A stretch of DNA of 64,000 nucleotides. It comes from Bacteroidales bacterium. GTDB taxonomy: Bacteria > Bacteroidota > Bacteroidia > Bacteroidales > P3. Each line of letters begins with the position of its first letter. Positions within the stretch are counted from its first letter, which is position 1. The DNA is taken from contig WQWI01000007.1 of the NCBI GenBank assembly GCA_009785425.1, positions 1-64,000 on the forward strand, read 5' to 3'. Under the pieces are notes generated by a model. That model did not search any database and had not been told where the DNA came from. It worked only from the letters and a program-made list of their open reading frames with translations. Positions 5,868 through 41,657 of this stretch are shown in pieces. The position numbers and the translations under genes were made by a program.

Positions 5868-7067
5868 TTAAGAAAATTCTAAATCAACATCATGTAGTTC
5901 AACATAGGGAAGTCCCCACTTGCCAAGTTCCGCCATAAACGGATCAGGATCAAATTCTTCAACATTGAACACACCCGGCTTCTTCCAAAGACCTTTCAAG
6001 TACATCATTGCACCAATCATCGCAGGAACACCTGTGGTATAACTCACGCCTTGTGTGCCGGTTTCTTTGTAAGCCACCTCATGACTACAATTGTTGTAGA
6101 TATAATAGGTTTTTTCTTTGCCTTGCTTGTCCAAACCTTTGATGCGGCATCCGATAGATGTCCAGCCTTTGTAGTTTTCGCCTAAATCGCCCGGGTTTGG
6201 TAAAACGGCCTTCAAAAATTGAATTGGTACTATCTCTTTTCCTTCGTACATAATCGGCTCTATTCCTGCCATTCCAATATTTTGAATCACACGGAGGTGC
6301 GTTAGATATTCTTGTCCGAATGTCATCCAAAAACGAGCACGCTTCAACGTCGGATAATTTTTTACCAACGACTCCAATTCCTCGTGATAAATCAGATAAG
6401 ACTCTTTAGGTCCGATATTCGGATAAGTAATCGGCTGGTGAATTTCGTGAGGCTTGGTTTCGATCCATTGTCCGTTTTCCCAGTATTTTCCTGGTTGCGT
6501 AACCTCACGGATATTGATTTCCGGATTAAAATTGGTTGCAAACGCTTTGCCATGGTCTCCGGCATTGCAATCTACGATGTCCAAGTAGTGAATCTCGCTG
6601 AAATGATGCTTTACGGCATGAGCCACAAAAACACTGGTTACGCCTGGATCAAAGCCACAGCCGAGAATTGCCGTAATGCCCTTTTCTTTGTAGCGATCTT
6701 GATAAGCCCACTGCCAACTGTATTCGAATTTGGCTTCGTCAATCGGCTCGTAATTTGCTGTATCCAAATAGCTCACGCCGGTTTCCAAGCAGGCATCCAT
6801 AATAGGTAAATCTTGATATGGAAGTGCTAAATTTACAACTAAGTCCGGCTTCACTTCACGGATTAATTTAACCATTTCGGGAACGTTGTCGGCATCAATC
6901 TGTGCCGTTTTGATATTTTTTCCCGGTAGTGCTGCTGCAATCGCGTCACACTTAGACTTGGTACGGCTGGCAATCACGATTTCCTTGAAAACATCTGAAT
7001 TTTCAGCCATTTTGTGAACAGCAACGGTTGATACACCGCCCGCTCCGATAACTAAAACTTTGCTCAT
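5868..7067 (-). CDS. saccharopine dehydrogenase family protein, probably carboxynorspermidine dehydrogenase
   Basis: 399 residues. An N-terminal Rossmann fold (VLVIGAGGVSTVAVHKMAE, residues 4-22) binds NAD(P). DLVVNLALPYQDLPIMDACL and GVSYLDTANYE are typical of the saccharopine-dehydrogenase fold, as is GCGFDPGVTSVFVAHAV. The closest family I recall is carboxy(nor)spermidine dehydrogenase, which condenses aspartate semialdehyde with a diamine in the alternative spermidine pathway of many Bacteroidota. The length of about 400 residues fits. Lysine-pathway saccharopine dehydrogenase is the alternative. It would act in the cytosol. It has its own promoter, shared divergently with the LRR adhesin gene; the decarboxylase partner is not in the window. 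Confidence 0.8.
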   Translation of the reverse strand: MSKVLVIGAGGVSTVAVHKMAENSDVFKEIVIASRTKSKCDAIAAALPGKNIKTAQIDADNVPEMVKLIREVKPDLVVNLALPYQDLPIMDACLETGVSYLDTANYEPIDEAKFEYSWQWAYQDRYKEKGITAILGCGFDPGVTSVFVAHAVKHHFSEIHYLDIVDCNAGDHGKAFATNFNPEINIREVTQPGKYWENGQWIETKPHEIHQPITYPNIGPKESYLIYHEELESLVKNYPTLKRARFWMTFGQEYLTHLRVIQNIGMAGIEPIMYEGKEIVPIQFLKAVLPNPGDLGENYKGWTSIGCRIKGLDKQGKEKTYYIYNNCSHEVAYKETGTQGVSYTTGVPAMIGAMMYLKGLWKKPGVFNVEEFDPDPFMAELGKWGLPYVELHDVDLEFS

Positions 7068-22798: not shown

Positions 22799-22960
22799 AA
22801 TTTCTGACTTTTTTGTTAATAGCCGGGCGTATGCGATATGCCCTTACCCTATATAACGCAAAAATCCAGTTTTTCGTATAAAAAATTCCTTAAAAAATGT
22901 TAAATTGTTGAAAACTTCCGGATTTTGTTAATAAACCCTCGCTATTTCAGAATTTTTTCG

Positions 22961-22968
22961 TATCTTCG
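22961..22968 (+). promoter_or_regulatory. -7-like box of the FISUMP lipoprotein gene
   Basis: TATCTTCG, one base off the TAnnTTTG consensus, 31 bases before the ATG at 23000. Confidence 0.5.
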
Positions 22969-22999
22969 CATTTCTTTTCACAAGCCAAAAATCAAACTC

Positions 23000-23899
23000 A
23001 TGAAAAACTTTTTCACATTTTTAATTTCTGCAATTTTACTGTTAACCGTTGCTTCTTGCAACAATAACAACAACGATTCTGTTTCTGCTACAGGCGTAAC
23101 TCTACAGGATTCAGCCACTTTGTTTTTGGGTAATACGGTTCGTTTGAACGCTATTGTTTTGCCTGAAAATACTACTAACAAAACTGTAACTTGGTCAAGT
23201 ACTGACCCTGCTGTTGCTACTGTTTCTAATGGTACTGTAACCTCTGTAACAGCCGGTATAACAAACATTATTGCTACTACTCAAGATGGTAATTTTACTG
23301 ATACCGCTGTTGTAACTGTTGGAGCATTTTCTTGTAATTCTAACACTCCTGGTTGGGGCGAGAGCCTTGGCACTGTAACTCGTGGTACACAGGAGTGGAT
23401 TATTGAGGGGCATGGGATTTCTCAAATTTGGTCTGATGCTGTAACTGCTACGGCTTGTGTTAATAGAACGACTGAATTTAGAGGGGGTACAACCGATAAT
23501 TTCAATGCTGATTGTCGTTCAAATCCTGATCTTCCGGGTGATTTCTTTTCTTGGTGTGCTGTTGTGCGTTTTGCTGATCAACTTTGTCCTTATCCTTGGC
23601 GTGTTCCCACTACTCAAGACTTCCGTGATTTAGATATTGCTATGGGTAGTAACGGAAATTCACGAACGGATTTGGCTTTTGTTAATGCAAATTACATTAC
23701 TCGTTGGGGTGGTCGTTTTGGTGGCTTCAGCCGTTCAGGCGGTACGCTTTGGCATCAGGGCGTCTGGGGCCTCTACTGGGCTCAGTCAGAGCACGATGCT
23801 ACGGTCGGACGTAACTTGACCTTCGGCATGAATGGTGTCGTCGGCCCTCAGAGTTGGGGCCTCAAGGACATCAGTGCTCCCGTGCGTTGTGTCCGCTAG
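23000..23899 (+). CDS. lipoprotein with BIG2 domain and C-terminal FISUMP domain; candidate DGR target
   Basis: 299 residues. Lipoprotein signal (1-20, LTVASC, Cys20). A bacterial Ig-like group 2 domain (about 27-110) carries LPENTTNKTVTWSSTDPAVA. The C-terminal two-thirds match the FISUMP (Fib_succ_major) domain, a C-type-lectin-like fold: CPYPWRVPTTQDFRDLD, then WGLYWAQSE, LTFGMNGVV and the terminal VRCVR. The last about 160 bases (from about 23737) are clearly more GC-rich, with codons ending in C and G, than the AT-rich rest of the gene. The WGxYWxxSE...LxF...VRCVR arrangement is that of variable regions of diversity-generating retroelements. It is probably a surface or periplasmic binding protein. 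The ATG at 23000 is chosen for its signal peptide. Confidence 0.85.
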   Translation: MKNFFTFLISAILLLTVASCNNNNNDSVSATGVTLQDSATLFLGNTVRLNAIVLPENTTNKTVTWSSTDPAVATVSNGTVTSVTAGITNIIATTQDGNFTDTAVVTVGAFSCNSNTPGWGESLGTVTRGTQEWIIEGHGISQIWSDAVTATACVNRTTEFRGGTTDNFNADCRSNPDLPGDFFSWCAVVRFADQLCPYPWRVPTTQDFRDLDIAMGSNGNSRTDLAFVNANYITRWGGRFGGFSRSGGTLWHQGVWGLYWAQSEHDATVGRNLTFGMNGVVGPQSWGLKDISAPVRCVR

Positions 23900-23926
23900 G
23901 AACTTCGATTTTTGAATTTTGATATT

Positions 23927-23956
23927 GCCTCGTGGCGTGCGTAGCTGACACGAGGC
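23927..23956. other. hairpin just downstream of the FISUMP gene
   Basis: GCCTCGTG pairs with CACGAGGC around a 14-base loop, 28 bases after the stop. It may be a terminator-like structure, or the hairpin that often follows DGR variable regions. Confidence 0.45.
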
Positions 23957-23968
23957 GGCTGTAAAATT

Positions 23969-24037
23969 GTAGGGGTATGCCCAACCCCTACAAAAGGGTG
24001 CGTATAACCGTAGGGGCGAGGCATGCCTCGCCCCTAC
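23969..24037. repeat. two tandem family C palindromes
   Basis: First GTAGGGGT-ATGCCCA-ACCCCTAC (23969-23991), then the perfect 28-base palindrome GTAGGGGCGAGGCATG / CCTCGCCCCTAC core (24010-24037). The second is identical to the copy at 36377-36404. The rest of the 285-bp gap up to ftsZ shows nothing more than the ftsZ promoter. Confidence 0.75.
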
Positions 24038-36376: not shown

Positions 36377-36404
36377 GTAGGGGCGAGGCATGCCTCGCCC
36401 CTAC
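36377..36404. repeat. family C palindrome (exact copy)
   Basis: GTAGGGGCGAGGCATG / CATGCCTCGCCCCTAC, a perfect 28-base palindrome identical to 24010-24037. It sits between the TonB receptor stop and the HMA gene start, inside the presumed operon. Confidence 0.8.
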
Positions 36405-41629: not shown

Positions 41630-41657
41630 GTAGGGGCGAGGCATGTCTCGCCCCTAC
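41630..41657. repeat. family C palindrome with one mismatch
   Basis: GTAGGGGCGAGGCATG then TCTCGCCCCTAC; compared with the copies at 24010 and 36377 one base differs (GTCTCG for GCCTCG), giving a G-T wobble in the stem. Confidence 0.75.

Follow-up and report, generated by a model that had tools for sequence, protein, structure and literature searches.

Does the 3' end of a FISUMP lipoprotein gene from an uncultured Bacteroidales bacterium represent a variable region (VR) of a diversity-generating retroelement (DGR) that is encoded elsewhere in the genome? The question arises from a single gene in the window, i.e., the whole stretch of 64,000 nucleotides that was analysed, which is contig C7 of a 1.63-Mb metagenome-assembled genome (MAG; 71% complete, 49 contigs). 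For comparison we used four Bacteroidales MAGs of sister species (G001-G004, one genome per species), whose source we take to be termite guts, as read from the sample codes. The gene and the elements that follow it in the window are:

23000..23899, + strand: FISUMP (Fib_succ_major) lipoprotein gene with N-terminal Big_2, DGR-type variable protein (from ORF and Pfam)
23705..23899, + strand: 3' end resembling a variable region, 64 codons and the stop (from codon table, GC3 rank and permutation)
23900..23905, + strand: GAACTT, 3' end of a shared repeat element, common to the template repeat (TR) on contig C33 and to C40, C11 and C9
23906..23926, + strand: conserved spacer CGATTTTTGAATTTTGATATT from VR to hairpin
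23927..23956, + strand: hairpin GCCTCGTG ... CACGAGGC with loop core TGCGTNAGC, candidate DGR target-site hairpin

Composition break at the end of the gene

The open frame extends over 22925-23899, with an MKN start at 23000 and the stop at 23897-23899, and bears out the FISUMP lipoprotein gene proposed in the sequence-only reading, including its frame and stop. Pfam domains in the encoded protein are Big_2 (1.9e-12) and Fib_succ_major (2.8e-8, just over the cut-off), and there is a weak match to the signal region of PG1828-family lipoproteins. The VR is 3'-terminal and lies within the Fib_succ_major domain; the encoded end contains all three motifs that had been read there (WGLYWAQSE, LTFGMNGVV, and VRCVR). 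Sequence searches returned no solved structural relative of the Fib_succ_major domain, and a single-sequence structure model of the protein was useless (pLDDT 28).

GC3 of the gene rises from 0.25 upstream to 0.65 across the final 55 codons, the change point being best placed at 23723 (codon permutation p 5e-5). The abrupt codon shift that had been placed at about 23737 is thus real, and is the top terminal GC3 shift among the 41 window ORFs of at least 200 codons (runner-up +0.12). Richness of the tail in NNC/NNT codons, claimed on the same occasion, holds as a number (69% of codons) but is not distinctive, as these codons already make up 72% upstream; the change is in NNC codons, which account for 40% of the tail versus 13% upstream. 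Among 60 terminal FISUMP genes from five genomes, the GC3 jump of the window gene ranks fourth; five of the eight top jumps belong to proven cognates of a template, and genomes lacking a reverse transcriptase (RT) reach a maximum of 0.31. The GC3 jump alone was rejected as a marker of activity, because smaller jumps also occur in RT-less genomes.

The DGR locus and its remote targets

As the sequence-only reading had observed, the window itself contains no RT; the RT matches of the genome are on contigs C33 and C8. The C33 RT (RVT_1) carries IGNLTSQ, which conforms to the DGR motif [IVL]GxxxSQ of the SQ type, and its best PDB match is 8ub7 'Reverse transcriptase' (328 aa, E 1.9e-27; next match 1e-5), presumably the DGR RT of BPP-1. 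It is frameshifted near residue 297; the 91% identical RT of G001 is encoded in an uninterrupted frame of 366 codons. The RT on C8 was rejected as a DGR RT, being of the AbiP2 type of antiphage defence. Features on these two contigs are:

C33:3985-4725: Avd (PHROG 'Avd protein of DGR' 7e-13; NF033474 1.6e-9, below its curated cut-off)
C33:6236-6427: template repeat, reading WGGAYGGNCNVNGTLNNQGTWGFYWSQTENSATNAWILNFDTNGNVNPQNANNKNNGFALRCVR; FISUMP-type, 64 codons, AAC/AAT-rich
L002:892-2403 (G000:C8): AbiP2-type RT (PADLOC E 7e-192)

The C33 locus additionally contains an IS200-like gene and a FISUMP target on the opposite strand. Judged from its sequence, the genome of the window gene possesses a DGR, with the RT motif, Avd, and an adenine-focused TR/VR pair all present. 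No second Avd and no second TR were found in this 71% complete genome. The DGR locus L108 (G004:C131) has a single RT and a pair each of template repeats and Avd genes, in opposite orientation. Sequence upstream of all four template repeats is conserved (L005:6140-6232; CCAGT..., CAC..., GTGGTTACT) and likely represents a structured leader of the template RNA; Rfam gave no match at the DGR loci, leader stretch included. Viral contigs scanned with the window gene and with the RT likewise yielded no match.

Comparison of the C33 template with the end of a FISUMP gene on contig C40 revealed mismatches at 23 of 50 adenines and at 9 of 142 other positions (odds ratio (OR) 12.6, p 2e-9); by this mismatch pattern, C40 is clearly a remote target of the C33 template. 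Sister species include intact RTs and several more cognate remote targets. In G004, the targets on the separate contigs C176 and C149 differ from the template at 15/53 and 22/53 adenines and at 3/139 and 4/139 non-adenines, respectively, and three further targets have 14-18 non-adenine mismatches. The C22 target of G001, which closes a 1481-codon frame, differs at 19/40 adenines versus 6/137 non-adenines. The existence of remote DGR targets of the FISUMP type in the window-gene genome is supported, because RT, Avd, and TR are present and the TR has a proven target in C40.

The exact TR tail AACAATAAGRATAACGG occurs only at the four template repeats and at one cognate VR (G004 C176), and is absent from G002 and G003, neither of which has an RT or Avd. 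These two genomes also lack a TR and have kept FISUMP genes. One of them, at G003:C86:1431-2058 (L211), contains a FISUMP VR with an in-frame TGA and a weak copy of the post-VR hairpin, which is likely a DGR relic.

How does the window VR relate to these templates? It equals the template repeats of C33 and G004 in length and frame, and its variable codons coincide with the AAC/AAT positions of the template. Mismatches to four templates are in excess at adenines (OR 2.8-4.0, p 2e-4 to 3e-5), whereas the non-adenine mismatch to the best template is about 31%, compared to 2-13% in proven cognates. Because about 31% of the non-adenine sites differ, none of the known TRs is the template of the window VR; the C33 TR was rejected as its cognate on 46/146 non-adenine mismatches. 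Similarity searches of the 71% complete genome and the four sister species did not retrieve a cognate TR, and an A-to-N pattern search with narrow mismatch tolerance matched the window gene alone, the similarity searches being the stronger negative of the two. The proposal that the window gene is a remote DGR target is therefore strengthened by RT, Avd, and a FISUMP-type TR in the same genome and weakened by the lack of a template of its own. Of the two absences that had been named as speaking against it, that of an RT did not hold, and that of a matching template did in the 71% complete assembly.

A paralogue on contig C11 (73% protein identity) is informative on the mode of divergence. At codon positions 1-2, the VRs of the window gene and C11 differ at 29/48 TR adenines versus 15/80 other bases (p 2e-6). 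Silent divergence between the two genes is equal in the VR (10/31 codons) and the gene bodies (53/175), and amounts to 2/47 between two G004 co-targets of one TR. The VRs of C7 and C11 were not recently rewritten from one template, because their silent divergence matches the level in the gene bodies. Both may be relics, or each may be served by a separate template in the part of the genome that the assembly lacks.

Current homing into the window gene has about an even chance. Its competitor is a relic state, in which the VR was once written by a DGR, has lost its template, and now evolves like any other gene; as a sub-case of DGR origin it competes with current targeting only, and we rate it at somewhat less than even. 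The missing cognate TR in the 71% complete genome, the VR silent divergence from C11 at gene-body level, the frameshifted C33 RT, and the persistence of FISUMP genes in G002 and G003 without RT and TR, one of them with a stop codon inside the VR, all fit such a relic. However, in GC3 jump the window gene equals proven current targets, its hairpin stem is intact, and the assembly in which a template was sought is only 71% complete.

The element downstream of the variable region

A [GC]AACTT box downstream of the stop is shared by TRs and by some VRs of the sister species. In the window, GAACTT directly follows the stop, an arrangement 9 nt shorter than that of C11. The conserved post-VR element is ordered as AACTT, TTGAATTTTGAT, and a stem with the TGCGTNAGC loop. 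An 8-bp hairpin had been described from the window sequence and is found in that place, with the 28th base past the stop as its first; its arms GCCTCGTG/CACGAGGC at 23927-23934/23949-23956 form an 8-bp stem, or 10 pairs including wobble. A TTGAATTTTGAT-like sequence with a stem is shared by the window gene, C11, G004 C176, and G001 C22, and thus by three species. The stem letters vary among these four copies, all of which retain the loop core TGCGTNAGC.

REP-like inverted repeats GTAGGGGCGAGGC/GCCTCGCCCCTAC are present in the window at 24010-24037, 36377-36404, and 41630-41657, with six half-sites versus 0.01 expected.

That the hairpin is a mere transcription terminator or REP-like repeat, unrelated to homing, is unlikely. 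Proximity of the REP-like repeats, the first of which begins just downstream, the IS200-like gene in the C33 locus, the lack of a window-type hairpin behind C40 and several other proven VRs, and stem covariation over the four sequences that is not clearly above shuffles would agree with this explanation. Against it, a TGCGTNAGC loop with a stem of at least seven pairs occurred only behind the four FISUMP VRs of three species in the 460 kb searched, and no T-run follows the window hairpin. A covariance model, which scored E 1e-17 to 1e-22 on its four building sequences, found a fifth copy that was not used in building, again behind a FISUMP VR relic, namely the one in G003 (E 0.008); its other hits were weak chance matches.

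The Bordetella phage BPP-1 requires a target-site hairpin, and hairpins of phage DGRs have a GC-rich stem of 7-10 bp, 4-34 bp from the VR, and a GRNA loop, with structure rather than sequence being decisive (PMC3240598). The window hairpin lies within the range of about 4-34 bp downstream; its loop differs from GRNA and is of a GTNA type inside the TGCGTNAGC core, unlike that of BPP-1 (PMC3240598).

Proposed mechanism and relation to known DGRs

Ordinary diversification of a C-type-lectin paralogue by selection and recombination, with a DGR never having acted on the window gene, is quite improbable: the FISUMP family is large (35 matches in the window-gene genome), other members vary at the same surface positions, selection could also make the variable codons of lectin paralogues diverge, and VRs are static in some orthologous pairs (C1_77/g1C14, C12/g1C21), but this would leave unexplained the sharp change in third-position composition, a TR of equal length that has AAY codons where the VR varies, and the conserved post-VR hairpin common to cognate VRs of other species.

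The components of a DGR, remote VRs that are cognate, a break in composition, adenine-focused paralogue divergence, and a conserved hairpin are all observed, and we consider it likely that the tail of the window gene is a VR written by a DGR of the C33 family acting remotely. The DGR family at work would be that of C33, with its TR, Avd, and SQ-motif RT, and of two sister species. Briefly, the element would act in trans: reverse transcription of TR RNA, erroneous at adenines, would yield a cDNA that replaces the 3' ends of scattered FISUMP lipoprotein genes upstream of the AACTT-hairpin target site. The predicted C-type-lectin ligand surface of the exported lipoprotein would thereby be rewritten. 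The window gene's own TR would either have been lost or belong to the 29% of the genome that is missing from the assembly. We infer both homing itself and the ligand-binding role.

FISUMP families of the genus comprise 27-44 matches per genome and extend to very large genes. In the window-gene genome, an open frame of 6034 codons (G000:C1:108484-126585; L029, L030) runs off the contig end and contains 14 FISUMP domains, which are of a second template type (WGGARFTG...YWSSTE...GFALRCVR). Repeated FISUMP domains also occur in G001, in frames of 4279, 2860, and 1481 codons. An internal VR-like domain in a giant G001 gene (L119:8889-9065) differs from the G001 template at 17/40 adenines and 10/137 non-adenines; another (L116, minus strand, ending at 6422 on the reversed strand) differs at 19/40 and 20/137, respectively, and is followed by 2325 more codons. 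The internal VRs on contigs C11 and C3 of G001 match the TR at most non-adenine sites. It is conceivable, albeit rather doubtful, that in this genus a large FISUMP lipoprotein repertoire is targeted in trans by a compact DGR via the AACTT-hairpin and that the VR type of this DGR has spread into giant multi-FISUMP genes. If true, these genes would give rise to multi-valent hypervariable adhesins.

We count the system among the known kinds of DGR because there are precedents for Fib_succ_major targets, remote lipoprotein targets, and action in trans (PMC4159848, PMC4891356, PMC10907252). A survey of human-microbiome DGRs listed nine target proteins with Fib_succ_major and nine with Big_2 (Ye 2014, PMC4159848), i.e., the same target domain family as the window gene; the present system differs in its termite-gut Bacteroidales hosts and in having several remote targets per genome. 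Treponema denticola has one core DGR locus with scattered lipoprotein targets, including leftover targets that have outlived their DGR or TR type (PMC4891356), which resembles the remote lipoprotein targets and leftovers described here, although its targets are TvpA-like and its phylum is different from that of the window genome. In Thiohalocapsa PB-PSB1, several DGR loci act in trans on targets that include multi-VR proteins, and some VRs have no perfect TR in the reference genome (PNAS 2024, PMC10907252). Trans action and VRs without a perfect TR recur here; the Thiohalocapsa targets, however, are conflict-system sensors rather than surface FISUMP lipoproteins (PMC10907252). The Bordetella phage BPP-1 DGR (Mtd, Avd, bRT) and the C33 family have an SQ-motif RT, Avd, and TR/VR in common, and the window gene is like the BPP-1 target in having its VR at the 3' end and a hairpin downstream. 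BPP-1 is a phage cassette that acts in cis with a 4-nt GRNA loop, whereas the system described here is chromosomal and remote (PMC3240598).

Contig-based surveys state that remote VRs are invisible to them, VR and RT not being neighbours (PMC8144416). What stands out against known DGRs is the size of the FISUMP family and the giant multi-FISUMP genes, some with internal VRs. Our analysis contributes a DGR family that is chromosomal and serves several remote targets in uncultured termite symbionts, and the shared post-VR hairpin element provides a sequence handle to find remote targets without a template. The giant multi-FISUMP genes raise a testable question on hypervariable multi-domain adhesins in the gut.
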